DNA of 22,654 nucleotides from a virus. The DNA is taken from positions 1 through 22,654 of the IMG/VR virus record IMGVR_UViG_3300044940_000614, one strand, 5' to 3'. The notes below the pieces were generated by a model that worked only from the letters and a program-made list of their open reading frames with translations, did not search any database and had not been told where the DNA came from. A program made the position numbers and the translations under genes. The first letter of the stretch is position 1. The number at the start of each line of letters is the position of its first letter. Positions 8,104 through 22,654 of the stretch are shown here, in pieces.

Positions 8104-9108
8104 ATGCTCGATATTTTCAACGACAACTCTTTCAGCAACCTGGAGCTGAGCGCCGCCATCCAGGTGGTGCCGAACAACTACGGCATTCTGCAGCGGATGA
8201 ATGCCTTCCCGGACAAGCCCGTGCGCACCCGCTCGATTGTCATCGAGCGTAAGGACGGCCAACTGAATCTGCTGCCCACCCAGCCCGTGGGCGGCCCTGC
8301 CACGCAGGGCACATCCTCCAAGCGCGTGTTGCGGAACTTCACCATCCCGCACATTCCCTACGAGGATGTGATCCTCGCGGCCGACGTGCAAGGCATCCGG
8401 GCCTTCGGCAGTGACACCCAGCTCGCCGCGGTGCAGGACCTGGTGCTCGAAAAGCTCACCGCTGCCGCGAACAAGCACTACATCACCCGGGAGTTCCACA
8501 AGTGGGGCGCGCTCCGCGGCACGGTGCTGGACGCGGACGGCAGCGTCATTCTGGATCTTTTCGATGAGTTCGGGGTCACCGAAAAGGTGATCGATTTCGC
8601 GTTCTCCAGCGCCGGCACGGATGTTGCGGCGAAGGTCCGGGAAATCAAGCAGTACGTCGAGGAGCAAGCCATGGGCCTGATGTACGACGGGATTCACGTG
8701 TTCTGCTCGCCCGAGTTCTTCAATGCCCTGGTCGGCCATCAGAAGGTCGAGAAGTTCTATACGGCCTTCAACAACGGAACCCTGCTCAATCAGGACCAGC
8801 GCTCCGGCTTCCCCTTCCAGGGTGTGATGTTCGAACAGATCTCCGCTTCGGCCACCGACGCGGCGGGCACCGTGCGGAAATTCGTGCCGGCCAACACCGC
8901 CCGGGTTTTCTTGAAGGGCGCGCCGGGCCTGTACGCCACGTATAACGCCCCGGCCGACTTCATCGAGACGGTGAACACTCCGGGCCAGGTTTTGTACGCC
9001 AGCCAGGAGGTCATGAAGCACAATCGCGGCGTCGAGATTCATACGCAGTCGAATCCGCTGCCGCTGTGCACGCGTCCGGAGCTGCTGGTGAAACTGACCA
9101 TGTCCTAG
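8104..9108 (+). CDS. Major capsid protein (gpE family)
   Basis: A 334-residue HK97-fold capsid protein of the lambda gpE family, close to the 341 residues of lambda gpE. Family-like segments are the N-terminal IFNDNSFSNLELSAAIQVVP, the P-loop region RNFTIPHIPYEDVILAADVQ, the spine helix AAVQDLVLEKLTAAANKH, the strand YDGIHVFCSPEFFNALVGHQ and the C-terminal VEIHTQSNPLPLCTRPELLV. AAAGGA lies six bases before the ATG. It is preceded by decoration protein, scaffold/protease and portal, exactly the lambda order, and would be the most abundant product of the block. Confidence 0.95.
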   Translation: MLDIFNDNSFSNLELSAAIQVVPNNYGILQRMNAFPDKPVRTRSIVIERKDGQLNLLPTQPVGGPATQGTSSKRVLRNFTIPHIPYEDVILAADVQGIRAFGSDTQLAAVQDLVLEKLTAAANKHYITREFHKWGALRGTVLDADGSVILDLFDEFGVTEKVIDFAFSSAGTDVAAKVREIKQYVEEQAMGLMYDGIHVFCSPEFFNALVGHQKVEKFYTAFNNGTLLNQDQRSGFPFQGVMFEQISASATDAAGTVRKFVPANTARVFLKGAPGLYATYNAPADFIETVNTPGQVLYASQEVMKHNRGVEIHTQSNPLPLCTRPELLVKLTMS

Positions 9109-9118
9109 CGGCGCCCCA

Positions 9119-9589
9119 ATGACCATGCTGCCCAAACTCTTCCTGGTGCTGCTGGCGGGCCTGTCGCTTCTTGCGCAGGCCCCCCTGCGCTGGACCTACA
9201 CGGCCGGCTACACCGTCACCGGTACGGCGGCGAAGCTGACCCTGCAGACGCCGTCCACCGGGCTCACGCGGACCGTCCGTCCGCAGACCGCCTCGGTGGT
9301 TTGCGCTGCGGCCTGCACCATCACGCTGAGCCGTAACGGCACTGTGGCGACGGCCACGGCCGGAACGGCGCTCAAGAACCGCACCGCCGCACCCAACGCG
9401 CAAACTCAGGTGTTCACCGCGTCGGACTCCAGCGGCGGGACCAGCTACCCGAGCTACCCAATGCCGGCGGGCGGCTCCGTCGTTTTGGACCTCAACGACA
9501 TGGAACTGCTGGCCAACGAGCGGCTGACAATTGCGGTCGCAGGTAGCTCCCAGGACATCACAGTCCTCGCCAAATGGGAGGAATACTGA
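9119..9589 (+). CDS. Secreted-type hypothetical protein in virion block
   Basis: A 156-residue protein with a textbook Sec signal peptide: short basic n-region (MTMLPK), hydrophobic core LFLVLLAGLSLLAQA and predicted cleavage near residue 21. The mature part is Thr/Ser/Ala-rich and beta-like (TVTGTAAKLTLQTP, GGSVVLDLNDMELLANERLT), resembling a small beta-sandwich, with a close cysteine pair (Cys62, Cys66) that could form a disulfide outside the cytoplasm. No family is recognised. It lies eleven bases after the major capsid stop, where a lambda-like phage has head-tail connector genes. The ribosome binding site is weak (GC-rich spacer); ATG 9125 is an alternative start that keeps the signal. 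The strong overlap with the next gene (TGATG) ties it to the late operon. Confidence 0.75.
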   Translation: MTMLPKLFLVLLAGLSLLAQAPLRWTYTAGYTVTGTAAKLTLQTPSTGLTRTVRPQTASVVCAAACTITLSRNGTVATATAGTALKNRTAAPNAQTQVFTASDSSGGTSYPSYPMPAGGSVVLDLNDMELLANERLTIAVAGSSQDITVLAKWEEY

Positions 9590-9888
9590 TGCCGGTCGAT
9601 TTCGCCCGGCATTCCGGGGCCTTCCTCCGGCATTTCGGTACACCACTGACCCTCTGGCCCGGACAACCGGGCGAGGTGGACATCCAAGCGGTGCTATACC
9701 GTTCGGCCCGTGGTGAGATCCGGTCTCCCGGAGACGCCGAGCGGGCATTGGTGTTTCTCACGGACTTGCCGGACGGTTTGCCCGCCGCCAACGACATGGC
9801 CGCGGTCGGCTCCCAACGCTACGCGATTATCAGCGTCACCGACCAAGGCGATGGAAGCGCAGCACTCCTGCTGCGCAAAAAGAACTAA
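9589..9888 (+). CDS. Head-tail attachment protein candidate (FII-like)
   Basis: A 99-residue protein. GGGAGGA (9576-9582) places the start at ATG 9589 in a TGATG overlap, not at the in-frame ATG 9574 that is itself upstream of this ribosome binding site. The size, position after the capsid gene and outline resemble lambda gpFII: polar N-terminal helix (FARHSGAFLRHFG), then strands with a charged turn (RSPGDAERALVFLTDL), DMAAVGSQRYAIISVTDQGD (barrel strand and loop) and a final AALLLRKKN strand. FII-type proteins bind the gpW/portal face and present the tail attachment surface. The similarity is at the level of pattern only, so the assignment is moderate. Confidence 0.6.
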   Translation: MPVDFARHSGAFLRHFGTPLTLWPGQPGEVDIQAVLYRSARGEIRSPGDAERALVFLTDLPDGLPAANDMAAVGSQRYAIISVTDQGDGSAALLLRKKN

Positions 9889-9899
9889 GGGGAACAATC

Positions 9900-10565
9900 A
9901 TGAATCAACTCCACAACCGGTGCCTGGCGATCCTGCTGGCAGTGGCGATCGCGCTGGCCGCGCCTCTGTCCGGAGCCATCCAGTACAGCACCGCGGTCCG
10001 TAACGCGCAGCTGGACGCGCTCGAAACCACCATCGGCACGTCGCCGGTCCTCAAGATTTTCGACGGGACCAAGCCTGCCAATTGCGCGGCGGCGGACGCC
10101 GGTACCGTGCTGGTGACAATGACCCTGCCGTCGGACTGGATGGACGCGGCGTCGAGCGGCAGCAAGAGTAAGCTCGGGACCTGGTCGGGAACGGTGAGTG
10201 ATGCCGGCACCGCCCAGTATTTCAGGATCTACGCCACGGGCGGCTCTACGTGCCATATCCAGGGCTCGGTGACGGGTTCCGGGTCCGGCGCCGGTGATGT
10301 TGGTGCCGGCGGATCTGGGGATGTAGCGCAAGGCGCAGACGTCGCCGCGGGCGAAGGCGCCGTGGCGGAGGGCGATGCCACCCAGGACCCGGATGCGGTT
10401 GTGGGTACGGCCGGCGATGGAACAGCGATCGCGGTCTCCGGTACTTTGCTGGCGCACTTCAGCGCAGCATGGCCCCGGGCGGCGTCCTGCACCGCCCTGT
10501 CGGCACCGGGTGCGGTGTGGCGTATGGCGGCGCCGGTCGCTCAATTTAGCCTGATCGAGAACTAA
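9900..10565 (+). CDS. Phage virion-associated protein with signal peptide
   Basis: A 221-residue protein behind a strong AAGGGG site. Residues 1-26 form a signal peptide (MNQLHNR, then CLAILLAVAIALAAPLSGA). Residues about 27-125 (QYSTAVRNAQLDALETTIGT, DGTKPANCAAADAGTVLVTM, TLPSDWMDAASSG, YFRIYATGGSTCHIQGSVTG) match a conserved phage protein family that I recall beginning at the QYSTAVRNA segment itself and lacking a signal; its function is unknown. Residues about 130-180 are a low-complexity stretch of Gly, Ala, Asp, Glu and Val, almost all GNN codons with lower GC at third positions than the neighbouring genes; the end (RAASCTALSAPGAVWRMAAP) is unlike the family. A frameshift, local rearrangement or real repetitive tail could explain this. 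Confidence 0.75.
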   Translation: MNQLHNRCLAILLAVAIALAAPLSGAIQYSTAVRNAQLDALETTIGTSPVLKIFDGTKPANCAAADAGTVLVTMTLPSDWMDAASSGSKSKLGTWSGTVSDAGTAQYFRIYATGGSTCHIQGSVTGSGSGAGDVGAGGSGDVAQGADVAAGEGAVAEGDATQDPDAVVGTAGDGTAIAVSGTLLAHFSAAWPRAASCTALSAPGAVWRMAAPVAQFSLIEN

Positions 10566-10568
10566 ACC

Positions 10569-10904
10569 ATGAAACTGCTGCTCGAAATGACGCGGCTGCG
10601 CACCGCGTTGTGGCGGGTGGCGGTCACCGCGGCGGGGGCCCCCCTGGATGTGTCGGGAGGGACCTTCACCTTTGCGGCGAAAACGACCATCGCCGGCAGC
10701 CCGCTGTTTTCGAAGACCTCCGGGGCCGGTATCACGGTTGAGGACGGGCCTGGAGGTATCCTCCTGGTCGAAGTCGGCCCCGACGATACCGAGGGCCTGG
10801 CGAATAGTACCACGGTTCTGCAATGCGAACTGACGGGGGCTTTCGGCGGCCAGGTCTACTCGCTCGCGCGCGGGCGGCTGACCGTATTCCCGAACATCGC
10901 CTGA
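10569..10904 (+). CDS. Small beta-rich phage protein (BppU N-terminal-like)
   Basis: A 111-residue protein that resembles the small all-beta BppU-type domain found at the N-terminus of receptor-binding proteins and in free-standing phage proteins: VAVTAAGAPLDVSGGTFTFA, then AAKTTIAGSPLFSKTSGAGI, VEDGPGGILLVEVGPDDTEG, LQCELTGAFGGQVYSLARGR and a final strand LTVFPNI. The pattern of a quantity defined, a material derivative written as a constrained strand pair, and a terminal TVxPxI is typical. The role is probably virion attachment or connector. It starts three bases after the preceding stop and is followed by the tail terminator candidate. There is no signal peptide; the N-terminal MKLLLEM is too short. 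Confidence 0.6.
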   Translation: MKLLLEMTRLRTALWRVAVTAAGAPLDVSGGTFTFAAKTTIAGSPLFSKTSGAGITVEDGPGGILLVEVGPDDTEGLANSTTVLQCELTGAFGGQVYSLARGRLTVFPNIA

Positions 10905-10907
10905 CAT

Positions 10908-11342
10908 ATGCAAAACCCGGATCTGCTGGTGGATGCCCTCGTTGATCGCCTGCGCGGAATGCCCGAGGTGCTCGATCTGGTGCATGGCGATCCCGACCTG
11001 ATCGAAGTCTACGGGGACGACGCCGACAGCGCCTTTGCCGCGGTCTATGAGGGTGGCGCGAACCGCATCCTGGCGGTGCTGACTGCAGTGGAAAGCGATG
11101 AGCGATCGCGCTGGGTGTACACCGTCACGCTGTACCTGCGCGTGGCGGGACACCGGCTGGGCGGGGCATTCGTCGCCATTTGCGGGACCCCAGTGCCGGG
11201 CGCGGGCACGACATTCGCGAATGCGGACCCGCATCCCGATTTTGTGTGGGCCGCCGCACCCACCTTCGAGCGCCAGCTCGACGAAGACGGCATCGAGTAC
11301 CCGGTGATCGTGATGCGTTTTACGGACGCCACGGCCGGTTAA
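10908..11342 (+). CDS. Tail terminator/completion protein candidate
   Basis: A 144-residue alpha/beta protein in the position of lambda U. The N-terminal helix (DLLVDALVDRLRGMPEVLDL) followed by a strand with acidic loop (IEVYGDD), AVYEGGANRILAVLTAVESD, a basic-aromatic strand SRWVYTVTLYLRV and the long C-terminal strand YPVIVMRF resemble tail terminators, which form a hexamer that caps the tail tube and binds the head connector. It lies between the connector proteins and the tail tube gene, and the fold outline fits, but no diagnostic motif is conserved enough to be certain. ATATG start directly follows the preceding TGA. Confidence 0.6.
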   Translation: MQNPDLLVDALVDRLRGMPEVLDLVHGDPDLIEVYGDDADSAFAAVYEGGANRILAVLTAVESDERSRWVYTVTLYLRVAGHRLGGAFVAICGTPVPGAGTTFANADPHPDFVWAAAPTFERQLDEDGIEYPVIVMRFTDATAG

Positions 11343-11354
11343 AGGAGACCCACA

Positions 11355-11507
11355 ATGCAGCATCTGAAGGACTACGTATGGATGCGGCTGGGTGACGGAC
11401 CCGTCATCCAGGTGCCCGCCACCACCGAAGCCTTGACCGAGAAACTGGCAGCCGGATACATCCAGGTTGATCAACCGGCGGAGAGCGCCGGGGAGGAGCA
11501 GCACTAA
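11355..11507 (+). CDS. Small acidic phage protein, 50 aa
   Basis: A short gene with a strong AAAGGAG site (11341-11347) seven bases before its ATG and a stop that overlaps the tail tube start (TAATG). The product contains YVWMRLGDGPVIQVPATTEA, a short beta-hairpin, then a helix TEALTEKLAAGYIQV and an acidic tail ESAGEEQH. Nothing in the families I know matches; similar small acidic proteins occur beside tail tube genes in other siphoviruses. The good translation signals and tight fit between two structural genes make it a confident coding call with unknown function. Confidence 0.7.
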   Translation: MQHLKDYVWMRLGDGPVIQVPATTEALTEKLAAGYIQVDQPAESAGEEQH

Positions 11508-12559
11508 TGTCCGCGAATATCCGCGAAATTATTTCGGCCTTGGCCTTCCGCAAACAGGCCAACATCTCGACGTTGCCCGGCGCTGCCAACTTCTTCACGC
11601 TGAGCCGGACGAACGACTCGACCGCGGAAATCAACCCCGGCACCGAGGACGATGCGCTCGACCTGGGCAAGGGCAACGAGTGGGCCAACAACGTCTTCCC
11701 GCTGGCGGTGGACGTGAACGTGCCCTACGAGAAGTACGCGTCGAGCGAGATCTTCGCCTACCTCGGGGTCTTCGGTCTGGGCAGCTTCGCCAAGACCACG
11801 CCCGACACCGGCGTGATCCGCTACACCTGTGTCCCGCTGAACCCGGTGACCCAGGGCATCGAGCTGCCGTATACCGCCTACGTCGAGGCGGTGCGCCAGG
11901 GCGGGAGCGCGGTCATGGATCGCGCCGCCATCGGCTGCGTAGTGCAGGATTGGGGTTTCGAGCTCAACTCCGGGACTGGCCGGCAAAACGCCAAGGTCAG
12001 CTTCAATCTGGTCGGATGCGGCCTGGTCGCCCAGCCGTCCGGCGTGACCATCCCAGCGGCATTCGTGGAGCATGGGCTGAACGCCGGCTCCGCGGCAATC
12101 ACCATCCTCGGCCAGAACTACATCACGCTCAAGCGGTTTGTGAATCTGCGGTTCAATTGGGCGAACAACATCCGTCTGGAGCAGGGCTTGTTCCCCGGCT
12201 CCGGGCTGGATGACAACGGCTTCCAGTACCGTGGCCGGCTGGAGAACGGCGATCGCAGCGTCAGCATGGAGTTCCAGGTGCGCCTCGCGAACGGCTCCAC
12301 CGAAGCGGCCAATCTGCTGGCCCAAACCGAGGGCACGGCGGTGATCTCGCTGACCGGCGCCGAAATCGGCTCCACGGGCATTCATCACAGCATGACGCTG
12401 ACCCTGCACCGTGTGCGCGTCAGTGCGGCGGTGGTGGGCAACGACAACGGCCTGCTGACCATCAACGTCACTCTGCGCGTGCTCTACCACGCCACCAACG
12501 GTCTGCTGACGCTGGTGGTGGATACCGAGCAGGACAACATCGGCGCGGCGGCCGCGTAA
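11507..12559 (+). CDS. Major tail tube protein
   Basis: A 350-residue protein in the V position before the chaperone and tape measure genes. The N-terminal IREIISALAFRKQANISTLP, the central beta-rich part (PVTQGIELPYTAYVEAVRQG, CVVQDWGFELNSGTGRQNAK) and the repeated sandwich strands (SVSMEFQVRLANGSTEAANL, MTLTLHRVRV, LLTINVTLRVLYH) fit siphovirus tail tube proteins, which stack as hexameric rings around the tape measure. It is longer than lambda gpV (246 residues), suggesting an additional surface domain, perhaps around residues 170-230. The start overlaps the preceding stop. No signal peptide. Identification rests on sequence pattern and conserved order. Confidence 0.8.
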   Translation: MSANIREIISALAFRKQANISTLPGAANFFTLSRTNDSTAEINPGTEDDALDLGKGNEWANNVFPLAVDVNVPYEKYASSEIFAYLGVFGLGSFAKTTPDTGVIRYTCVPLNPVTQGIELPYTAYVEAVRQGGSAVMDRAAIGCVVQDWGFELNSGTGRQNAKVSFNLVGCGLVAQPSGVTIPAAFVEHGLNAGSAAITILGQNYITLKRFVNLRFNWANNIRLEQGLFPGSGLDDNGFQYRGRLENGDRSVSMEFQVRLANGSTEAANLLAQTEGTAVISLTGAEIGSTGIHHSMTLTLHRVRVSAAVVGNDNGLLTINVTLRVLYHATNGLLTLVVDTEQDNIGAAAA

Positions 12560-13051
12560 ATGGCGGCCCCGCTGATCGGCAGCCGCGGCCGGCGCGTCAG
12601 GATCTACGTCAAGAAACAGATCGTGGTCAGCCACCTCAACCTGAGCCAGCGCCAGATGCTGGCGATCGGGAACGTAGGCCTGGCCGCCCGCAAGGAAGAG
12701 ATCGCGCGCGGACTCAACGCAAAGGGGGCTCCGGCCAAGCCCCTTAGTAAGGGCTATGCGATCCGCAAGAGCAAGCTCTCGAAATGGTTTCAGGGCGCGG
12801 GCAGGAACAAGCGCGACCTGCGGCTCACGGGCGCCATGCTGCGTGAATGGACGGTCCGCACCGTATCGACCAACGAGGCCCGCGCCGGATGGTCTACCCT
12901 GCGGAACCGCACGAAAGCGGCGGTCAACAACGCCATCGAGGAGTTTGTCGCCTGGTCTCCAGAGAACCAGAAGCGGGTGATGTCGGCGGCGAACCAGGTT
13001 GTGAACGAGGTCAGCAAACGCATCGTTTTGGAGAAGACGCTGAATGATTGA
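12560..13051 (+). CDS. Virion morphogenesis / gp10-like neck protein candidate
   Basis: A 163-residue, strongly basic protein beginning immediately after the tail tube stop. After a basic N-terminus it has helices QRQMLAIGNVGLAARKEEIA and the segment AKPLSKGYAIRKSK, then RDLRLTGAMLREWTV, a pattern (R-D-L-x-L-T-G-x-M-L) seen in phage virion morphogenesis and HK97 gp10/lambda gpZ type proteins that complete the head-tail interface. The C-terminal half is helical (WSPENQKRVMSAANQVVNEV). Gene position, between tail tube and chaperone, is a little later than Z in lambda. The assignment is by motif resemblance only. The stop overlaps the chaperone start. Confidence 0.55.
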   Translation: MAAPLIGSRGRRVRIYVKKQIVVSHLNLSQRQMLAIGNVGLAARKEEIARGLNAKGAPAKPLSKGYAIRKSKLSKWFQGAGRNKRDLRLTGAMLREWTVRTVSTNEARAGWSTLRNRTKAAVNNAIEEFVAWSPENQKRVMSAANQVVNEVSKRIVLEKTLND

Positions 13052-13601
13052 ACAGAAGATCGACCTGCACTTGCTGAGTGGCCAGGTGCTCGAAGCCAGG
13101 TTCCCCACCGACGAGGAGTGGATCCGGCGGAACCGGATCCGCCGTCTGATCCAGCGGACGGTGAAGGGAGAAACCTCTTACGAAGTGGAGCAATCCGAGG
13201 CGGCCGACCTCGAACTGTTCCGGGCGATCACCGGCGACGAGTCGTTCAACGACGTGGATGAAGCCGTCCTGGTTGTGGAGAAGCTCGCCGCCGTGGAGGT
13301 CGCCGCGATCGAGCGTGCCGGCGAAGATTACATGCTCGAACTGGAGACGTTCCTGGGGGCGCGCGAGCTGCGGTTGCGGCGGCCTACGGCGGCTCATGTC
13401 CGCCGCTTCCGCGGCTTTGTGACTCCGGTGGATCTGTCGCACGGCCGGACCTGGCTGAAGACCGACCTCACTTTGGGTGCCCAGATCTGCGACGAACTGG
13501 CCGGCGGAGCGACTCCAGTGCCCATTCTGGTGAAGGTCAGCGCCGTGTCGGCGGTCATCGCCGAAGTGCAGCGGCCATTAGAGCCCTGCGTGCGCCCTTA
13601 G
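13044..13601 (+). CDS. Tail assembly chaperone (gpG-like)
   Basis: A 185-residue, mostly helical protein directly upstream of the tape measure, the constant position of siphovirus tail assembly chaperones, which coat the tape measure and recruit tail tube subunits. Visible parts: N-terminal hairpin (DLHLLSGQVLEARFPTDEEW), basic helix (RRNRIRRLIQRTVKG), then acidic helices (EAADLELFRAITGDESFNDV, VVEKLAAVEVAAIERAGEDY). A second reading frame in the -1 register opens at 13262 and continues past its stop to 13978, as in lambda G/T, and frame-matched slip candidates lie at 13472 and 13595. ATG 13044 overlaps the preceding stop. The chaperone call is by position and composition. Confidence 0.65.
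   Translation: MIEQKIDLHLLSGQVLEARFPTDEEWIRRNRIRRLIQRTVKGETSYEVEQSEAADLELFRAITGDESFNDVDEAVLVVEKLAAVEVAAIERAGEDYMLELETFLGARELRLRRPTAAHVRRFRGFVTPVDLSHGRTWLKTDLTLGAQICDELAGGATPVPILVKVSAVSAVIAEVQRPLEPCVRP
13472..13478 (+). promoter_or_regulatory. Candidate -1 slippery heptamer TTTGGGT
   Basis: T TTG GGT in the chaperone frame has the X XXY YYZ form needed for tandem -1 slippage (TTG to TTT, GGT to GGG). Against it, the -1 frame between here and about 13575 reads as an Arg-rich stretch that looks like a shadow rather than protein, so the site may be fortuitous. Confidence 0.3.
13595..13601 (+). promoter_or_regulatory. Candidate -1 slip site at the chaperone stop (CCCTTAG)
   Basis: The chaperone frame ends C CCT TAG. 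A prolyl-tRNA on CCT can re-pair with CCC one base back while the stop codon waits, and reading would continue TTA GAC GGG into the downstream -1 frame. The junction would read CVRP-LDGDPPRNF, with plausible coding sequence on both sides. It is not the classical two-codon heptamer, so efficiency would be low or would need further signals. Confidence 0.35.
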
Positions 13602-13639
13602 ACGGGGACCCTCCGCGCAACTTTCGATGGTTCGCCCGG

Positions 13640-13978
13640 TTGCTCTGGTCCCCGGAAGAACGCTGTCTGCGGCGGCCTCAATCCGCCTGCCCGGAGTGCA
13701 GGCCGGGCCAGGCGGTGTGTGACGGCTGCCCACTCCCGGATTTCGAAGCGATGCAGCGCGGGCACTTCGGCCAACTGGCCGACGCGGCCGCGGAATGGCG
13801 GTCGATGATCGCCGACGGCCTGCATATCTGTCCGCAGGACATTCCCGCTGAAGAGTATTACGCGCTGCGCGTGATGCGCGAAGAAGAACCACAACCCAAA
13901 GATCCCCATGGCCAACAATCTGCAATTGGTGGTGACGCTCGACAACCGTCCCGCCAACCAGGCCATCGGCGACCTTAA
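13640..13978 (+). CDS. Chaperone -1-frame extension (T-like), zinc-knuckle
   Basis: A reading frame in the -1 register relative to the chaperone. If translated alone it would start at TTG 13640 (112 residues) with no good ribosome binding site, yet protein-like sequence begins earlier, near 13586 (APLDGDPPRNFRWFARLLWS), with no ATG or GTG. That is what a frameshift extension such as lambda T looks like; the fused product would be 311 residues. It contains ACPECRPGQAVCDGCP, a CxxC...CxxC knuckle likely to bind zinc, followed by helices (FGQLADAAAEWRSMI, EEYYALRVMREEEP). The last 71 bases overlap the tape measure gene. Alternatives are a non-canonical start (CTG/ATT) with coupling to the chaperone stop. 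Confidence 0.55.
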   Translation: MLWSPEERCLRRPQSACPECRPGQAVCDGCPLPDFEAMQRGHFGQLADAAAEWRSMIADGLHICPQDIPAEEYYALRVMREEEPQPKDPHGQQSAIGGDARQPSRQPGHRRP

Positions 13979-16900
13979 CAAGCAGCTCGGCGGGATCGAT
14001 CAGGCGGCCATTCGCGGTTCGCAGGCCGCGTCGAAGGCCCTTGAAGGCGTGGACCGCAGCGCGGTACGCGTGGCGGCGTCGGTACGGCAGTCGTTCGCGG
14101 GGCTGGGCGCGGCGCTGGGCGTCACCGGGTTGGGGGCGCTGGCGAAGTCGGTGTTCGACCTGAGCGCCGGCTTCGAACGCTCCCGGGTCGGTCTGCGCGC
14201 TTTCGTCGGGGATGCGAAGACGGCCGATGCGCTGTTCAAGGACATCCAGAAGTTCGCCGAGTCCTCGCCCTTTGAGTTCAAGGACCTACTTCAGGGCGGC
14301 CAGCGGCTGCTGGCGTTTAACACCGCGGCGGAGGATGTCGTGCCTACGCTCAAGGCGGCCTCGGCCGCCATCGGTGCGATCGGTGGGGGGATGGATAATT
14401 TCTTCCTAATCATCAAAGCACTGGGAGATATCCGGAACCGTGGGAAGGTGACTGGCGAAGAGATCCGGCAGTTGGCCAACCAGGGAGTCCCAGCGATCGA
14501 GATGCTCGCCAAAGGGTTTGGCGTCACGACGCGGGAAATCGTGAAGAGTGTCGAGCAGGGTATTGTTCCGGCCGACGCTGCCATCCGAGTTCTGGTGCGC
14601 GGGATGACGGAGAAGTTCGGCGTTTTCGACGATGCGGTCAGCAAGACAGCCAGCGCCGCGCTATCGAACTTCAAGGACGCGGTACAGCGCCTGGCCGACG
14701 ATCTGGGCCGCGCTGGTCTGCCGGCAATCACGAAGGGCATCAATGACCTGCGTGCCAAGCTCGACGACATCGTCGCGCGGGCGGCGGAATACAAAGCACA
14801 GTTCGCGAGCCTGGCGGTGACGCTCGGAGAAATCGGTCTGGCTATTGTCACTTACCGCGTGATCGCAGGGTTGCAGGGCATCGCGACGGCGTTGACCGCC
14901 ATTCGCGCCGCCAGCGTTGGGAATGTGTGGGGTCTGATCGCGGCCGGGCTCGCGCTGGTGACCGTCGAAACCATCCGTGCCAACAAAGCACTCCGGGACC
15001 TGAAATCCGCCGAACTGGACGACGGCATCGTGCGTGGCTTGCTCCGGGATGGCAAAACCGTCCAGGAGATCGAGGCCCTCGCCCGGCAGGCGGGATTGAC
15101 CGCCGATCGCATCCAGGATGCCTTGCAGCGGATCAACGGGAGAGGCGCACAGTCCGACTTCAGTGGGGCCTCCGAGCGGCTGCGAAAACAGTTCGGCCTG
15201 GAGATCGTGGGCGAGGCCGCGAAGAAGGCCGCCCCGGAGATTGAGCAGTTCGACACCAGCCTGCGTGACGCCGAGGAGGCCGCCAGGCGGGCGGCGGATG
15301 CCAATAAGCGCTCGGCTGACATCCTGGATCGCGCGCGGCGCGGCGAGCTGACGGGCGTCGCCCGCATTGTCGAGGAATACCGCCAGTACCGGGAGGAACT
15401 GGGGATCACCGCCGAGGCCCGCCGCAATCTGGCGGAAGCGCAACTGATCAGCATTCGCAAGGAGGCTGCCGCACAGCAGCGCAAGGGCGTCGAGGAGACG
15501 CTCAAGGCGGCCGAGGAGGAGCGCAAGATCCAGATGGACGCCCGCGATGCGACATTCCGGGCGGAGCGGCAGATGGCCGGGGAGATTCTCAACCAGCGCA
15601 TCGAGAATTCCAGAGCTGAGCTGGGGCTGCAGGAGATCACGCTGGCCGCACGGCGCGACCGCGAACTACGGGCGCTCGAAGGCCTCAACGCCGTCACCAT
15701 CGACCAGAAGGTGGGCGTCGAACAGCAGAAGGCCTCGATTGAGGAGCGCTACTTGCGCGACAGCCTGGCGCTCAAGCGCACCTTGCTGGATGCCGATCTG
15801 GCGATCGAGCTCGCCAAGGCCGGAGAGAACGCGGATCTGCGGCTGGCGATCGAGCAGAAATACTCGATCGCGCGGCGGTCGCTCGAAATGCAGACGGACG
15901 CGGAGATCGCCGCGGCGCGCGAAAACGCGGCCAACCAGAGCACGCGGCTGGTGCTCGAACAGAACCAGCAGGTCTTTGACCGTTTCAAGCGCCAGGCGGA
16001 GGGCGTGTTCGATGCGCTGGTGCGGACCTCGACGCGCGGGTGGCGGGCGATTGGCGACGCGCTGCGCACGGCGCTGCTGACGGCGCTCAAGGACGTGGTG
16101 ACCTCGCGTGTCGCGCAGATGCTGTTTCAGGCGGCCGGTGGGCAGGTAACGCTGGCTCCGGGTGTGGGCGGCGGCCGGGGCGGGATGCTGGGCGGATTGG
16201 CCGGGCTGTTAGGACTGGGAGGGATCCCGGTCTTCGGCGCTCCCGGTGCGCCGGGCGGAACTCCCGGATTTGCTGGGCCGGTGAACTTGGCCAATACGGC
16301 CGCCACGGCTGCGGCCAACACCGGAGCTGCGGCGCAAGCCAAGGGCGTTGGCCTGCTGGCCAGCCTCACGGGCATGGGCGCTCAGTTCAAGGGACTGTTG
16401 ACCCAATTGGGCAACCTGGGCGCGGGAACCGGCCACATGGCCCGGGGGATCACGGGAATGAAGGGCGGCGGACTGCTAGCGGGTGGGGGTGTCCTGGTCA
16501 TGGACGGCCTCCGGCGCGGCGGCTGGCTGGGGCTGGCGGAAACCGCGGCGGGCGGCGCGATGATCGGGGCCAAGTTCGGCGGTCCACTGGGCGCGGTGAT
16601 CGGTGCCGCGGCCGGCGGCGTGGCTGGGCTGTTCCGCATGCTGAAGAGCTCGGCCGAGGAGAAGATCGTCAAGAAGGTCCGGGAGATGTACGGCATCGAT
16701 ATCGAGCGCCGGTTCGCGAAGGACCATCTGTTGCCCATCATCAAGAACCAGTTCGGCGGCAATGTCGACCTCGGGCTGCGGTCGCCCGCGGTGCGCGACT
16801 TGCTGGAGCTGTACCAGATGTCGCGGGGCCGCGACGCGCAGGGGATCGTCACGCGGGCCACCGCCAGCGTCTTCGCGAGCCGCGGCGGGGCCTTCGAACA

Positions 16901-17129
16901 GCTGCCGACGTTCCAGAACGGCGCCCCGGTGCTGGCCGGCGGCGGAAGTGTCCAGAACATCACCGTGCAGTTGGACGCGAAATCGAGCGCGGCCTTCCTC
17001 GAAGGCCGGGCCGTGCAGGCGCTGGCGGAGAACCCGCGGGTGGTCTCGCGGGCATCGGACCGGGGCCAGGTGGAGCGCGCCAGCCGGGATGGCCTGGCGG
17101 CCTCGCTCGCGCCGTCGTTTGTCGTGTAG
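13908..17129 (+). CDS. Tail tape measure protein
   Basis: A 1073-residue protein that sets tail length and is ejected with DNA. Residues about 60-230 match the tape-measure N-terminal domain family (FERSRVGLRAFVGDAKTADA, PFEFKDLLQGGQRLLAFNTA, KVTGEEIRQLANQGVPAIEM). Hydrophobic helices follow at about 300-355, then a long charged coiled coil (about 430-690, many Ala/Glu/Arg helices), a Gly/Pro-rich region (about 745-790), further small-residue hydrophobic stretches (WLGLAETAAGGAMIGAKFGG, about 865-910) suited to membrane penetration, and a C-terminal part ending in RDGLAASLAPSFVV. By the common rule of about 1.5 angstrom per residue the tail would be near 150-160 nm. The ATG at 13908 lies inside the chaperone extension frame, with only a weak purine tract upstream. 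Confidence 0.93.
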   Translation: MANNLQLVVTLDNRPANQAIGDLNKQLGGIDQAAIRGSQAASKALEGVDRSAVRVAASVRQSFAGLGAALGVTGLGALAKSVFDLSAGFERSRVGLRAFVGDAKTADALFKDIQKFAESSPFEFKDLLQGGQRLLAFNTAAEDVVPTLKAASAAIGAIGGGMDNFFLIIKALGDIRNRGKVTGEEIRQLANQGVPAIEMLAKGFGVTTREIVKSVEQGIVPADAAIRVLVRGMTEKFGVFDDAVSKTASAALSNFKDAVQRLADDLGRAGLPAITKGINDLRAKLDDIVARAAEYKAQFASLAVTLGEIGLAIVTYRVIAGLQGIATALTAIRAASVGNVWGLIAAGLALVTVETIRANKALRDLKSAELDDGIVRGLLRDGKTVQEIEALARQAGLTADRIQDALQRINGRGAQSDFSGASERLRKQFGLEIVGEAAKKAAPEIEQFDTSLRDAEEAARRAADANKRSADILDRARRGELTGVARIVEEYRQYREELGITAEARRNLAEAQLISIRKEAAAQQRKGVEETLKAAEEERKIQMDARDATFRAERQMAGEILNQRIENSRAELGLQEITLAARRDRELRALEGLNAVTIDQKVGVEQQKASIEERYLRDSLALKRTLLDADLAIELAKAGENADLRLAIEQKYSIARRSLEMQTDAEIAAARENAANQSTRLVLEQNQQVFDRFKRQAEGVFDALVRTSTRGWRAIGDALRTALLTALKDVVTSRVAQMLFQAAGGQVTLAPGVGGGRGGMLGGLAGLLGLGGIPVFGAPGAPGGTPGFAGPVNLANTAATAAANTGAAAQAKGVGLLASLTGMGAQFKGLLTQLGNLGAGTGHMARGITGMKGGGLLAGGGVLVMDGLRRGGWLGLAETAAGGAMIGAKFGGPLGAVIGAAAGGVAGLFRMLKSSAEEKIVKKVREMYGIDIERRFAKDHLLPIIKNQFGGNVDLGLRSPAVRDLLELYQMSRGRDAQGIVTRATASVFASRGGAFEQLPTFQNGAPVLAGGGSVQNITVQLDAKSSAAFLEGRAVQALAENPRVVSRASDRGQVERASRDGLAASLAPSFVV

Positions 17130-17139
17130 GGAGGGACGT

Positions 17140-17559
17140 ATGGCTTGGGGATGGTTGAAGAAGACGGGCAAGGTGGCGGCGGCCACTGGCAAGATCGCGG
17201 GGCAGGTGGGCATGCGCTATGCCGAGACGCGGTATCCCTTCCTGGGGGATCTGCTCAACCTGGTCGCCGAGGGCGTGGACCACGCGGAGATGGCTCCGGG
17301 CCTCACTGGAGCCGAGCGGAAGGAGCAGGTGATGGGCCGGATCGACGTGGCCGGCGAGGCGCTGCTCGCGCGCATTCATCAAGCGGGTCTGGCGGTGGCC
17401 GACCAGCAGGGTTTTTTTGAAGGGGCGAGCGCACTGGTGGACGCCGTGCACCGCATCCGCAAATCCGTGTCCCCGGCTGGCTTCAGCGGGAAGGTCCCGC
17501 CGGGGGCGGTGATGCACGTGCAGAATGGCCGGATCGTGGCCGTGGAGAGCCCCGAGTAA
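17140..17559 (+). CDS. Hypothetical tail-region protein, 139 aa
   Basis: GGGAGGG (17129-17135) directs the start to ATG 17140; the same frame is open much further left but only as a shadow of the tape measure. The N-terminus is basic and small-residue-rich (WGWLKKTGKVAAATGKIAGQ), possibly a membrane-active amphipathic helix, followed by RYPFLGDLLNLVAEGV, a charged segment LTGAERKEQVMGRI, and AVADQQGFFEGASALVDAVH. The GAERKEQVM...FFxGxxxLVDAVxxI pattern is reminiscent of small phage proteins related to the LLH holin superfamily, but a clear transmembrane helix is missing. It ends with a short beta-hairpin (GAVMHVQNGRIVAVESPE). Location between tape measure and distal tail protein suggests a tail or ejection-related role. 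Confidence 0.65.
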   Translation: MAWGWLKKTGKVAAATGKIAGQVGMRYAETRYPFLGDLLNLVAEGVDHAEMAPGLTGAERKEQVMGRIDVAGEALLARIHQAGLAVADQQGFFEGASALVDAVHRIRKSVSPAGFSGKVPPGAVMHVQNGRIVAVESPE

Positions 17560-17561
17560 CC

Positions 17562-17972
17562 ATGCCGGCATCGGTGGCGGCGGCCAGCCCGGCCGCGGTC
17601 CTTCCCCACTTCCTGGCGATCGCCTTCGAGCGCAGCCAGGAATGGGCGGCTGAGGAGAACCTGTACCGCGACGGGAGCGTGCAGCAAAGGTCTCTGGCGG
17701 AAACCAGCCGCAAGCGCTGGGTGATCCATGCGCGGCTGACGGCGACGCAGCTGGGCGCGCTGCGGGCGTTCTACGTAGCCCGGAATGGGCCGCAGCAAGA
17801 GTTCTACTTCTACGACCCGTGGGAGACGTCCCCGGCGCTCAGCGCGGCCGGATACGACGAGAGCGGTTCGGTCACGGCCGGACGGTATGTCGTCCGGTTT
17901 GAAGGCGGCTGGCGGGAGTCGTTGCAACTGGGCCGGGGCGAGGCGCAGGTGGCGCTGGTGGAGGTCGGTTAA
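17562..17972 (+). CDS. Distal tail-like protein
   Basis: A 136-residue beta-rich protein following the tape measure, in the lambda M position. Residues 52-85 (RWVIHARLTATQLGALRAFY, then GPQQEFYFYDPW) and the closing strands (GRYVVRFEGG, AQVALVEV) are the pattern of distal-tail/minor tail proteins and DUF2460-type proteins, in which a helix after a strand pair (LTxxQxxxLRxFY) and an aromatic FYFYD strand recur. Such proteins form the ring between tail tube and tip. The same pattern reappears at the N-terminus of the next protein, so the two probably arose by duplication and may stack. ATG two bases after the preceding stop; no strong ribosome binding site, consistent with coupling. Confidence 0.72.
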   Translation: MPASVAAASPAAVLPHFLAIAFERSQEWAAEENLYRDGSVQQRSLAETSRKRWVIHARLTATQLGALRAFYVARNGPQQEFYFYDPWETSPALSAAGYDESGSVTAGRYVVRFEGGWRESLQLGRGEAQVALVEVG

Positions 17973-17980
17973 GAGCGGGC

Positions 17981-20900
17981 ATGCCGGACTATCTCGGGCT
18001 GGTGCCCGTGCCCGAGGTGTCTCCCTCCGGCACTTTCCCGTTCACCCCGGAATGGCCGTTCTATACTCTGCTGGATCCCGAGGTAGTGGTGCACACCTTC
18101 GGGGCGGGGAACGCCAAACGCGAGCAGCGTTTTCTGCTGGGCCACGGGCCGCGGCGCTGGCGCCTGGACCTGACCCTCACCCACGCCCAGTGGAACACGC
18201 TGCGGGATTTCTGGGAGGATCACCAGGGGCCAGTGATCCCGTTCACTTTCCACGCCCTCAATCCGGACCAGACCACCACCAGCTACACCGCACAGTTTGA
18301 AAGCGAGCCGCTGATTGTCCAGCGCGGCCGCCAGCGCCACGCGGTCAGTGTAGCCCTCCGGGAAGTATTCACGGGCAGCGGCCCCGTATATTCGGTGAGT
18401 GCGACGCAGACGCGGTTTCCGAATGGCGCGCTGGCGAGCGCCTTGGCCGCGCAGGCGCAGACGTTGATTCCGCTGCTGAAGATCACGCCCCGGCAAGCCG
18501 GATATCCGGCCATTTACCTCAGTGACCGCCGCTGCACGGTGGGCGGACAACTCTACCTGCCGCGGCTGCTCGAACTGCCGGAGATCCGCCAAAGCGCGGT
18601 GGGCGTGCCGGGCGCAAGCGCGGAAACCGACGACGCGACATTCGTACTCGGAAACGCCGATGGCGTCATCCGCGATCTGGCCACGCATGCGGACTACGGC
18701 GTGATGCTCGACTTCGCCCGCGTCGAGTATTCGCTCTTCCATGTCGGAACCGGAATCAAGCTGGACCTGTGGGGCGGGGAAATCGCGCGCGAAGGCTGGC
18801 AGATCGACGGGCCGACGGCATATCTGCGGTGCACCGACCGCCTGGCAAATCCGTTCCTGATCTTTCCGAACCGTACGATTGACCGGGGCTGCACCGCGCC
18901 TTTCGACGTGGCCCCGCTGTGCCCGTATTCGACCGCCGGAGCGCTCGACACCACGCACTTCCCGGCGGCCAGCGGCGCGAGCTGCGACCACGGCTACGCC
19001 ACTCCCAACGGGTGTCTGGCCCACGGCATGGAGCGCTACTATCGCGGCGTTCCGGTGACTCCGCAGCCGTTCCGCAGCCGGGACAACACGACCGGTTTGC
19101 GAGGCCTCGGCCGCGCGGTGTTCACCAGCTTGAGCCAGGTGAGCGACAGCATCATGGGGCGGGCTCTGCCATTCATCTTTACCGCCGAAGACCTGCCGGT
19201 GAAGGCGCTGCTGGCCACGGGCGCCGACCAGGGAGACTTTTACGAGGCGGTCGGCATCATCGGGCAGGGGCCGCTGGGCGCGCTCGGCGACCCGATGAAG
19301 CACAAGCTGGACGGCCAGCCGCAGCATGACCCGAAGTTCCCGCCGCGCGCGGTTTTGGGCGCCGAGCCTGCCGGGCCGAACGATTACCTGTCGCTCAGCT
19401 ACAACGGCAACCAGGTGAATGGCGACTGGCGCAAGGCCTACGTCGGCAACTCTACCTATATCCGCAACCTGAGCGCCGGGCTGGCGTTCCTGACTATCCG
19501 CAGGACCGACGAGAAGGGCCAGCAGTTCACGCGGCTCGATGAGCACGAAATGGAGGTCATCGTGCGCGAGGGCCTCTCGGGGTGGAAATGGACGGCCCCC
19601 GGCAGCCGGTCGAGCGTCCTGCTGACCAATCCCGTCTGGGTGGCTGTGAACCTGCTGCTGTGGGGGCTGAACCTGCACACCGCCTCCGCGGCGGCGCAGG
19701 AAGAGTACTTCGACGTGGCCGCCGCGATCGCCGCGGCCGCGATCTGCGACCAGACCGTCGCCAAGCTGGTGGGCAGCGGCAGCGAACCCCAATTCACTTT
19801 CGCCGGCGTGGTTAGCGAGCAACGGCCGCTGCGGGAGTGGATCGAGGACGTCCTCAAGAACTGCCTGGGCTACTTCGTCAACCAGGCTGGCAAGCTGCGG
19901 ATCGGCATCCGCAGCAATTCGAGCGCGGTGGCGGCGTTCACTTCCGGCAACCTGTTGCACCGTTCCGTACGCTTCGATCCGCCGAAGCGTGGCTTCAACC
20001 GGCTGGTGGTGAGCTTCGCCGACCGGCTGAAGGACGAAGTCACCGGCGAGACACTGTATCTGCCGAACACCGCGACGGCGTACGATGAGGACTTCGCGCT
20101 GGAACTGGGCGGCGGGACACGGGCCGAGTACTTCGAGGGGCAGACGAACCTGGCGGGCACGAACTCCATCAGCCAGGCGCAGCGGATCGCCAACATCCGG
20201 CTGCGCGAGGAGGTGGGAGGCGTCACGGCCGCCGAGCGGCTGCAACACGGCCGCGTGCGCGGCTCGACCACGGTGCTGGGGCTGGATTTCTCGGCAGGCG
20301 ATGTCATCTCCGTCGCGGATCCCGAGATTCCGGGCGGCACGGCCGAGATCCGGGTCACCACCTGGCGGCTGGGGCCGGATTTCCGCGTCGACTTCGAAGG
20401 CTACACCACGCGGGACTCGATGTACGATCTGCTCGAAGGGCCGAAACCGGCAGATGTCCTGCCAGACGGCGTACCGCCGGAGGAAGAACCGTGGCCCTTC
20501 CGTCTCCAGTGGCAGCCGAACGCCGAAACACCGGTGAGCGGTGATCCGGTGCATGCCGCGGGACACAACACGTTCGCACTGCGGCAGCGGTATGAGCCGC
20601 TGTATGACGGCAGCCAGCGCGCGCTGCTGGACGTGAGCGGCGTGCAGCCTGTGAACCGCTTCGTGCCGGACAGCTACCCGCCGGTGATCCGAACGGTGAC
20701 GCAGGCCTCGACGGGCGGGCACCTGCCCGGAGAACGCCGCTATTGGATCTCCGTGTGCGCCTGGAACTCCGACGGCTTCAGCCCGCCATGCCGGCTGCGC
20801 GTGCAGACCACGGCGGAAGGCACCGATACGAACCGTTTCACGCTGGCCGACATCACATGGCCCGCCGGCAGCTGGTCGGGATACGCGGTGTTTGTCGGGA

Positions 20901-22078
20901 TCGACGATGAACGCACCGCCACCCAGCAGGCGAAGGTCACAGGGGCGTTACCCGCCTCGATTGCGATTAATGGGCCGCTCCAAGTCTCAACGGTGGGCGT
21001 CCCGTCGCCCACCACCCGGCGTGTGGTGGCGTTCGCCAAGAAGTGCATCCACTTCGGGCTGTGGGGCGAGGTGGTGACTGGCGTCGCGGCGGGAGCCGTG
21101 ACGGTGGCGGCCATCGCGGGCCTCTCCGATGACTATACCGGCCGGATCCTGGCCGTAGTCGCGGACCAGAGTGACGGCTCCGCGAATCTTCTGCACTTCA
21201 CCGTGACGGGCCACAATCTCACTACGGGGGAGCTGAGTCTGACGCCGGACCCGCAAGCCGCGGGGGTGGAGTTCGGAGACGTCGCCACCATCCTGCTTCA
21301 GCCGAACATCTACACCGGCGCGACCATCGGCGATGCGATGATCGCCAACGGCATTTACCCGGACGGGCTGGGGACGGAGGACCCCGAGCGCGAGGCCGGC
21401 CTGCTGATCCGCGGCATCACCCCCGGACGCCCCCACCAGTTGCGGCGCATCGTGTCTCACACCGCGACCGCCTACACCGTGGATGAGCCGTTCGACTTCG
21501 AGCCGCTGTATTTCATCGTGGAGGAGGCGGGTTGGCCGTACCGCGCGAATTCGAGCGACATCGCCAACCGCCAGCCGGACGCGCGGATCACCACCACGCT
21601 GGTGGTGGACAACCTGGTCGGCCAGCCGATGCTGGTGGGCGCCTTCCTCGAAGACCGGCGTGGCTTACTTACGCCGGAGGAACTGGCGCCGGTGCGTTTT
21701 ACCTACCTATTCGGGCAGCCCGGATCGTCCATCGCGATCGACGATGGGTTCTACGATGCGCCGATCGTCGCGGACGCGGTGGCGATCGACCTGGCCAACG
21801 GGCTGAATCAGCGAATCACGCTCAACCAGGCGGACCGGATTACGATCCAGAATCCGGTGAACAGCGCGGGCCCCATCCGCGCGGGCATGTGGCTGCAGCT
21901 CTACATCGTCCAGGACGAGATCGGGCAGCGCCCGAACCCGGCTTATGGCTCGGCCTACGGCCCGGATGTCGCGGCCGAGCAGATCGACGATACGCCCGAA
22001 ACCCGGACGTCTATCGGGTTAACCTACGACGGCGCCAAGTGGCGCCTGGATTATTTCCGAACAGGAGTTCCGCTATGA
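17981..22078 (+). CDS. Fused tail-tip protein (distal-tail/gpL/gpJ-like)
   Basis: A 1365-residue protein that seems to join functions lambda divides among M, L and J. Residues about 55-130 repeat the preceding distal-tail domain (RRWRLDLTLTHAQWNTLRDF). Residues 165-360 look gpL/DUF2163-like, ending in four cysteines, Cys304, Cys314, Cys335 and Cys345 (C-x9-C-x20-C-x9-C), where lambda gpL holds an iron-sulfur cluster. Residues about 545-645 (NPVWVAVNLLLWGL, CDQTV, LREWIEDVLKNCLGYFVNQA, GKLRIGIR) and 660-850 (RLVVSFADRLKDEV, AQRIANIRLREEVG) resemble the gpJ/phage-tail-3 hub. Residues about 900-1010 look like an FNIII-type domain (RYWISVCAWNSDGFSPPCRL); the rest is beta-rich and unassigned. The stop overlaps the fibre gene start (ATGA). 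A stop-free 4.1 kb frame with domains in correct order argues against an assembly artefact. Confidence 0.88.
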   Translation: MPDYLGLVPVPEVSPSGTFPFTPEWPFYTLLDPEVVVHTFGAGNAKREQRFLLGHGPRRWRLDLTLTHAQWNTLRDFWEDHQGPVIPFTFHALNPDQTTTSYTAQFESEPLIVQRGRQRHAVSVALREVFTGSGPVYSVSATQTRFPNGALASALAAQAQTLIPLLKITPRQAGYPAIYLSDRRCTVGGQLYLPRLLELPEIRQSAVGVPGASAETDDATFVLGNADGVIRDLATHADYGVMLDFARVEYSLFHVGTGIKLDLWGGEIAREGWQIDGPTAYLRCTDRLANPFLIFPNRTIDRGCTAPFDVAPLCPYSTAGALDTTHFPAASGASCDHGYATPNGCLAHGMERYYRGVPVTPQPFRSRDNTTGLRGLGRAVFTSLSQVSDSIMGRALPFIFTAEDLPVKALLATGADQGDFYEAVGIIGQGPLGALGDPMKHKLDGQPQHDPKFPPRAVLGAEPAGPNDYLSLSYNGNQVNGDWRKAYVGNSTYIRNLSAGLAFLTIRRTDEKGQQFTRLDEHEMEVIVREGLSGWKWTAPGSRSSVLLTNPVWVAVNLLLWGLNLHTASAAAQEEYFDVAAAIAAAAICDQTVAKLVGSGSEPQFTFAGVVSEQRPLREWIEDVLKNCLGYFVNQAGKLRIGIRSNSSAVAAFTSGNLLHRSVRFDPPKRGFNRLVVSFADRLKDEVTGETLYLPNTATAYDEDFALELGGGTRAEYFEGQTNLAGTNSISQAQRIANIRLREEVGGVTAAERLQHGRVRGSTTVLGLDFSAGDVISVADPEIPGGTAEIRVTTWRLGPDFRVDFEGYTTRDSMYDLLEGPKPADVLPDGVPPEEEPWPFRLQWQPNAETPVSGDPVHAAGHNTFALRQRYEPLYDGSQRALLDVSGVQPVNRFVPDSYPPVIRTVTQASTGGHLPGERRYWISVCAWNSDGFSPPCRLRVQTTAEGTDTNRFTLADITWPAGSWSGYAVFVGIDDERTATQQAKVTGALPASIAINGPLQVSTVGVPSPTTRRVVAFAKKCIHFGLWGEVVTGVAAGAVTVAAIAGLSDDYTGRILAVVADQSDGSANLLHFTVTGHNLTTGELSLTPDPQAAGVEFGDVATILLQPNIYTGATIGDAMIANGIYPDGLGTEDPEREAGLLIRGITPGRPHQLRRIVSHTATAYTVDEPFDFEPLYFIVEEAGWPYRANSSDIANRQPDARITTTLVVDNLVGQPMLVGAFLEDRRGLLTPEELAPVRFTYLFGQPGSSIAIDDGFYDAPIVADAVAIDLANGLNQRITLNQADRITIQNPVNSAGPIRAGMWLQLYIVQDEIGQRPNPAYGSAYGPDVAAEQIDDTPETRTSIGLTYDGAKWRLDYFRTGVPL

Positions 22079-22654
22079 TGCTTCGCTTGACCCTGCTGCT
22101 GGCCGCGCTGTCGGCCGGGTGCGCCGCACAGAATCACACCGTCATTACGGTACTTCCCATCACGAACCCGGCCAGCGGTGCGCCCGAGGAGACCGGGCGG
22201 ATCCGGTACCGGGACCTGACCGGCAAGGCGGTGAGCCTGCGCGCGCCGGACGCGCTGGTGGCTTCCTACGATCTCCGCTGGCCGCAGGAGAACCAGACCG
22301 GCTGCGTCAAGAATACGGCCGCGATGGACGAGGGGCAGTTGGAGTTCGCCGCCTGCGCGACGTTTCCGGTGACCGACGATACGGTGGTGCTCAGCAACCT
22401 CGCGGATCCGACAAAACAGATCCGGTTCAGCGCCGCTTCCATCGGGACGGGGCAGACCCGCGTAGTGACCTTCCAGGATGCCGACCACACGGCCGCGGGC
22501 ATCGACATCACGAATACATTCAGCGCGAGCCAGGTATTCAACAACACCATCAACCTGGAGTGGAAGGACACGAGCGGAACTGCGCGCAAAATGCTCTATC
22601 TGGACAGCTCCAACAATTTCCACGCCGGGCCGGAGGACGCGCCCGGTGTGGGCG
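22075..22654 (+). CDS. Tail fibre-like protein with signal peptide (partial)
   Basis: Runs off the right edge; 193 residues are visible. ACAGGAG at 22061-22067 lies seven bases before ATG 22075 (ATG 22078 is the alternative). Residues 1-19 are a signal peptide (MMLRLTLLLAALSAGCAA); LSAGC is lipobox-like but has Ser at -3, so a lipoprotein is uncertain and signal peptidase I cleavage after CAA is the alternative. The mature part contains segments typical of phage tail fibres: ETGRIRYRDLTGKAVSLRAP with APDALVASYDLRWP (residues about 40-70), and NLADPTKQIRFSAASIGTGQ with RVVTFQDAD (about 109-137), plus AGIDITNT and KMLYLDSSNNF. The position after the tail-tip gene is that of a side or central tail fibre. 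The presence of an export signal is not normal for such proteins. Confidence 0.75.
   Translation, partial: MMLRLTLLLAALSAGCAAQNHTVITVLPITNPASGAPEETGRIRYRDLTGKAVSLRAPDALVASYDLRWPQENQTGCVKNTAAMDEGQLEFAACATFPVTDDTVVLSNLADPTKQIRFSAASIGTGQTRVVTFQDADHTAAGIDITNTFSASQVFNNTINLEWKDTSGTARKMLYLDSSNNFHAGPEDAPGVG

Follow-up and report, generated by a model that had tools for sequence, protein, structure and literature searches.

The accepted teaching is that tailed phages put their virions together entirely in the cytoplasm, and the question raised by the present locus is why three genes inside a block of head and tail genes should begin with sequences of the kind that direct proteins out of it. The locus is the virus record IMGVR_UViG_3300044940_000614, positions 1 to 22,654; this whole stretch of 22,654 nucleotides (nt) is called the window, and the three genes are called gA, gB and gC. 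The answer which we favour, at a probability of about 0.42, is that they encode accessory, disulfide-bonded outer virion proteins that are exported and join the particles at lysis. The argument is built on what was seen directly, namely the leaders, the point at which the gB leader is grafted, the recurrence of leaders, a cysteine bias and the accessory position of the genes.

Export-type leaders in the late gene block

Profile scans of the window proteins gave a lambda-like late block of head-tail genes in a single orientation. The original prediction had placed the three genes in such a co-oriented cluster, and matches to HDPD, Phage_cap_E, Hc1 and J bear this out. The features of the three genes are given below (aa, amino acids; RBS, ribosome-binding site; pLDDT, predicted local distance difference test), where a slash marks a candidate cleavage site.

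9119..9589, plus strand: gA, 156 aa, predicted exported-type; mature part predicted all-beta, 2 Cys
9119..9181, plus strand: predicted gA leader MTMLPKLFLVLLAGLSLLAQA, 21 aa; h-region mean 2.85, score 7.3; other site SLLA/QA
9887..9892, plus strand: gB RBS AAGGGG, 7 nt 5' of the ATG
9900..9977, plus strand: predicted gB leader MNQLHNRCLAILLAVAIALAAPLSGA, 26 aa; score 9.0; SGA/IQYS, alternative ALA/APLSG
9975..10370, plus strand: gB conserved domain (PHROG 3758), 7e-24; covarying Cys pair
10371..10565, plus strand: gB C-terminal tail, past the point where most family members stop; low pLDDT, contains an additional Cys
22063..22067, plus strand: gC RBS AGGAG, 7 nt 5' of the ATG, within the 3' end of the J-like gene
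22075..22128, plus strand: predicted gC leader MMLRLTLLLAALSAGCAA, 18 aa; score 7.1; CAA/QN or lipobox LSAG/C
22075..22654, plus strand: gC, predicted exported-type, tail-fibre-like; directly 3' of J, cut by the contig end

The leaders were scored by a rule-based scheme which takes n-region charge, h-region hydrophobicity and an AXA-type site, and which picked up 11/11 known E. coli signal peptides. A gene passed when its h-region was >=2.3 and its score >=7. By these rules gB (9.0), gA (7.3) and gC (7.1) have Sec-type leaders, each with the positive n-region, hydrophobic h-region and AXA-type site of a type I Sec signal, and none of the other 21 window genes tested passes; the portal reached its score with a weak h-region (2.02) and drops out at the 2.3 threshold. 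The hydrophobic leaders that had been noticed on the three proteins are thus recovered by the scorer. The two strong RBSs claimed among them are those of gB and gC, whose starts they support. gA has no Shine-Dalgarno site and starts 10 nt past the stop of the major capsid protein (MCP) gene, and for these reasons its start is less certain. In each of the three genes the GC content at third codon positions (GC3) of the leader resembles that of the remainder of the gene.

That three such leaders are unlikely by chance had also been claimed, and the estimates agree: 1.4% of shuffled window N-termini pass, giving P(>=3 of 24)=0.005, and a background of 2.4% among 1875 same-strand phage genes, true signals included, gives P(>=3 of 24)=0.02. 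Both values are indicative only, since the thresholds were picked after the window had been seen.

The graft point of the gB leader

gB (9900-10565, 221 aa) is matched over residues 26-130 by PHROG 3758, annotated 'virion structural protein' (7e-24), and relatives of gB are common. In 161 of the 166 loci of this family whose N-terminus was read, the start codon stands at, or no more than 3 codons from, a conserved A-x-Q-x-S N-terminus, and a leader as a family-wide trait of gB was ruled out on this count. One locus counted among the 161, L087, has at the conserved site only an unsupported TTG, and its true start lies upstream. The gB of the window has 25-26 extra N-terminal residues; where the family starts it offers no start codon, and its own Shine-Dalgarno sequence lies upstream. 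The leader start was accepted because of the last two features, and on the same grounds a wrong-start artefact was ruled out for gB. The original prediction had named orthologs starting downstream of the hydrophobic stretch as a point that would speak against it: this is what the family at large does (161/166), but not the window gB.

Leader-bearing gB was found in three further unrelated sources, which are one phage represented by L076, L093 and L095 (also present in a contig of a proteobacterial metagenome-assembled genome, MAG), the genome of Defluviimonas aestuarii (L087), and an uncultured-bacterium MAG (L091). The family therefore has a leaderless majority together with three unrelated members that have leaders of their own, as had been asked of the orthologs, and these three strengthen the case for an export leader. 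Every leader-bearing gB starts at a strong Shine-Dalgarno site, all the leader sequences differ, and the cleavage motifs lie no more than one residue from the conserved N-terminus: SGA/IQYS in the window, and ADA/ALKYS, ALA/AFQFS and AYA/LKLS in the others. In the window ALA/APLSG slightly outscores SGA/IQYS under this crude scheme, which leaves two candidate cleavage sites. Predicted cleavage would restore the usual mature N-terminus of gB. In the family tree the four leader-bearing proteins fall on separate branches, and the closest members to each are leaderless; different leaders, separate tree positions and leaderless nearest kin together make it most likely, on sequence comparison, that leaders were gained in at least four separate events at the same place.

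A single gB match was obtained in each of the L076, L087 and L091 genomes, which means that no source of gB other than the leader-bearing copy was found there. A search of 764 genomes of two bacterial groups gave no leader-bearing gB beyond the known cases. The L087 copy (L087:9911-10378, NZ_JASBQQ010000002.1) has a GTG start and is flanked by tail genes in a prophage-like block. At the other end of the protein, most family members stop near residue 134, and the tail of the window gB is about 64 residues longer; the minus strand is also open through this tail (10371-10565). A frameshift origin of the tail was rejected by eye, as the other frames gave it no support.

Fold and cysteine pair of gB

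An AlphaFold2 model of gB was built from 69 sequences, with pLDDT block means of 83-95 over residues 1-100 and 75.5 overall. In Foldseek the model matched chain A of 9RKV, a tail-fibre entry of Agrobacterium phage 7-7-1 (1e-6, prob 1.0, template-modelling score 0.74 on the target), at 18% identity and with a weak profile match of 0.008; 9RKV_A (141 aa, four copies) is probably the garland protein gp014 of that phage. Weaker matches were obtained to neck chains of Bas63 and Sf14, and 44NX_B, which is named only 'Structural protein', gave a profile match to gB at E=2e-10. In isolated phages the tail genes come upstream of gB, which in Seuss follows J. From the structural matches and this position gB is read as a small outer tail/neck protein of the virion. 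Two cysteines, at residues 37 and 93 from the conserved N-terminus, covary in the family (58 sequences with both, 6 with neither, 5 with one; Fisher p=1e-5, kinship not corrected for), and a disulfide is therefore indicated.

Leaders on other genes and their cysteine content

When the fetched loci were surveyed, leaders turned up on further genes, many of them adjoining gB and fibre- or tailspike-like, while part of the matches were clearly false (terminase Walker motifs) or of lysis type. Leader-bearing proteins include one in L071/L074 with GTLPVANGGTGATS, which we take to be a fibre-like motif, matches in L024 to a tail fibre PHROG (2e-13) and a decoration PHROG (4e-13), and a match in L077 to a tail spike PHROG (8e-5); further loci with such genes are L004, L127, L066, L131 and L035. 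For the comparison of cysteine content, 32 leader-bearing virion-block genes with a score >=8 were set against 1527 others. Cys density is 1.25 per 100 aa in the first set vs 0.67 in the second (p=0.002), and even Cys counts are found in 19/28 vs 516/1141 (p=0.02). Enrichment and even counts of Cys are expected for proteins reaching an oxidising compartment, and the bias fits that destination.

The strongest accumulation in one record was seen in L076 (IMGVR_UViG_3300002461_000337), a podovirus-like phage having three leader-bearing tailspike-like proteins besides its leader-bearing gB. These spikes hold 12, 14 and 10 Cys, while the 857-aa portal holds 1 and a 3296-aa protein 0; one of them has a Beta_helix match just below cut-off, and a search for relatives of the L076 tailspikes returned only L076 itself. 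The tailspike-like genes lie at record positions 16866-19699 and 23971-25575, and the gene at 16028, with a long n-region, may be another leader case.

gA, gC and the accessory position of the leader genes

gA gave no PHROG or NCBIfam match and no Pfam match above cut-off, and no sequence relatives were seen in viral contigs or phages. Its single-sequence model is weak (pLDDT 58) and all-beta, like small phage virion proteins, and it is proposed from this model that gA may be a small beta-sandwich decoration of the virion outside.

The reading frame of gC runs for 193 aa to the contig end without a stop. Its middle part matches phrog_13925 (6e-7), to which PHROG assigns no function; no relatives were found in viral contigs, and among phages there was one weak match, Phage C72C1. 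We call gC fibre-like on its position and on a motif resemblance which we assume to hold, and its place directly after J is presumably that of the exported Lom in lambda. The leader could be a type I signal or that of a lipoprotein: LSAGC has S at -3 as against the canonical lipobox [LVI][ASTVI][GAS]C, and a weak NCBIfam match to YgdI/YgdR (0.003) lies below cut-off. None of gA, gB and gC has a lysis domain or a match to a lysis family.

A capsid-based search gave 80 relatives, of which L225 and L200 are the best syntenic ones, with 14 and 11 genes in common with the window. No homologue of gA or gB was seen in either, and in L200 the closure gene comes immediately after the MCP gene. Each of the two has another leader-bearing gene, encoding MRRLIGLFMLACAAWA/QTQIRD... 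in L225 and MRRLLLILAWCHVAAA/QTQILD... in L200, which lies 3' of the DUF2460-like gene and, in L225, directly 5' of J. It is located at L225:19150-19758 and L200:12825-13439 and encodes 202-204 aa, with no Cys in the mature part; the L225 gene had no relatives in the phages searched. The 'AQ' endings of these two leaders we take as only a hint of an Acidobacteriota host. Since L225 and L200 lack gA and gB yet have another leader gene, leader genes look like exchanged accessory parts of the late block, and by gene order gA and gB are accessory inserts in it. The three proteins do not form one system, for gA and gB are inserts missing from the syntenic relatives and gC follows J.

Weighing of the explanations

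In the explanation that we prefer, gA, gB and gC would be made with Sec signal peptides and exported to the periplasm late in infection. There the leader would be cut off and the conserved cysteines would be oxidised, and the folded proteins would attach to the cytoplasm-made particles once lysis mixes the compartments, with gB as a small tail/neck surface protein, gC as a tail-fibre-like part and gA as a small beta-sandwich decoration. Sec export, cleavage, periplasmic oxidation and virion attachment at lysis are steps that we infer. What speaks for this explanation is that no gB copy was found beside the leader-bearing one, and that the latter retains its mature N-terminus, as for a virion part. 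Several points count on the other side. The presence of the three proteins in virions, and their export, are predictions from sequence; the gB fold does not require export, given that 161/166 gB relatives are leaderless and the Cys pair is kept in most of them; of the 3 Cys in the mature gB of the window, one lies in the tail; gC, if a lipoprotein, would be membrane-tied; and the term 'signal peptide' is absent from the main text of the papers on the disulfide-rich Agrobacterium phages Milano and 7-7-1, as far as a term search of these texts goes.

Exported virion adhesins could instead be surface decoys, which mask the receptor or sit in the envelope and so block superinfection, or the re-adsorption of progeny to the cell or debris, and which are dispensable in the particle. 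The adhesin character of the leader-bearing proteins (tail fibre, tailspike, gB adjoining fibre genes), the accessory nature of gA and gB, and the possible lipobox of gC in what we take to be the lambda lom position all suit such a role, and for gC it may be the better reading. As a general account it is the main rival, though a less probable one: against it stand the single leader-bearing gB copy found in each of L076, L087 and L091, its mature N-terminus kept within one residue, as would suit a protein that still fits a particle, and the place of the genes inside a co-oriented late block. A leader that stays uncleaved, anchoring the protein in a membrane or virion or lying hidden in the particle, is improbable. 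Cleavage is only predicted, and gA and gC score below gB, but the positive n-region, the h-region and the AXA-type motif at the graft point recur in four independent gB cases; the membrane-anchored virion part that had been suggested is not supported for gB, since its leaders finish with a cleavage motif where the mature protein begins. It is just as improbable that leaders of host genes were gained by recombination and tolerated, export being partial, with no special function. Leaders are rare in the gB family and differ in sequence, as neutral capture would have it, but it would have to explain four independent captures, an RBS at each leader, several leader genes per phage (three in the window, at least four in L076) and the Cys bias. 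Least credible of all is that the N-termini are hydrophobic by chance or the starts wrongly called, at least in the case of gA, which has neither a Shine-Dalgarno site nor a relative and was called by a home-made predictor; against this, no alternative start is available to gB, its homology boundary is strong, and the chance P is 0.005-0.02.

If the preferred explanation is true, a second compartment supplies part of the particle; otherwise the infected cell may display virion adhesins. Either outcome bears on the folding of disulfide-rich fibres and spikes, on superinfection and on spread.

Other features of the window

The head part of the late block runs in the order terminase genes, gpW-like, portal, protease, HDPD decoration protein, MCP, gA, Hc1/FII and gB; the tail part continues with a phrog_1084 gene after gB, tail genes, tape measure, DUF2460-like, J-like and gC as the last. 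Genes without a family-scan match were named from position and homology to syntenic relatives.

8104..9108, plus strand: major capsid protein (MCP), Phage_cap_E 3e-99
9574..9888, plus strand: head closure Hc1 / FII-like, from family scans
17981..22078, plus strand: central tail fibre J-like, phrog_31 6e-12

Among named phages the window capsid protein is closest to Wolbachia phage WO (48-50%). The decoration protein (7418-8086; HDPD match 4e-26) has about 100 residues beyond the HDPD profile length, the extra residues lying within the domain. At 918-1187, 5' of the terminase genes, a small protein resembles sigma-70 region 4 by eye and is possibly a late regulator. Long minus-strand open frames at 9885-11504 (539 aa) and 17969-20722 (917 aa) are antisense to late genes and are most likely a product of high GC3, not genes. 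A PADLOC scan for known anti-phage defence gave no family match.

Comparison with known systems

The usual carriers of signals in tailed phages are spanins, SAR endolysins and T4 RI, from which gA, gB and gC differ in having no lysis match. Lambda Lom and Bor and the T5 Llp-type proteins are phage-encoded exported proteins, Lom being encoded just after J. They are exported, as predicted for gA, gB and gC, but are not of virion families, and no sequence relation was seen. In filamentous phages the virion proteins pVIII and pIII are Sec-exported with cleaved leaders. Leaders on virion proteins are also what is proposed here, but those are membrane-extruded single-stranded DNA phages, not tailed ones, with unrelated proteins.

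PHROG 3758, for example Caulobacter phage Seuss gp33, has the same fold and Cys pair as gB, with 35-70% identity to relatives; its members differ from the window gB in lacking a leader (161/166) and in a shorter C-terminus. The predicted gB fold is also alike to that of 9RKV from phage 7-7-1, which is contractile-tailed. The literature on these phages describes, for 7-7-1, a garland of small homodimeric proteins round the fibres and, for Milano and 7-7-1, dense virion disulfide networks.

In the literature searched, the coverage of which is partial, nothing was found that describes signal peptides on virion proteins of tailed phages. It is conceivable, though doubtful, that several tailed-phage lineages send outer virion proteins, namely gB-type surface proteins, fibres and tailspikes, through Sec for cleavage and disulfide formation in the periplasm and attach them at lysis; Caudoviricetes would then have an additional line of assembly, located in the periplasm. 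The kinds of protein to which gA, gB and gC belong are known; it is the added export route that appears new to us.

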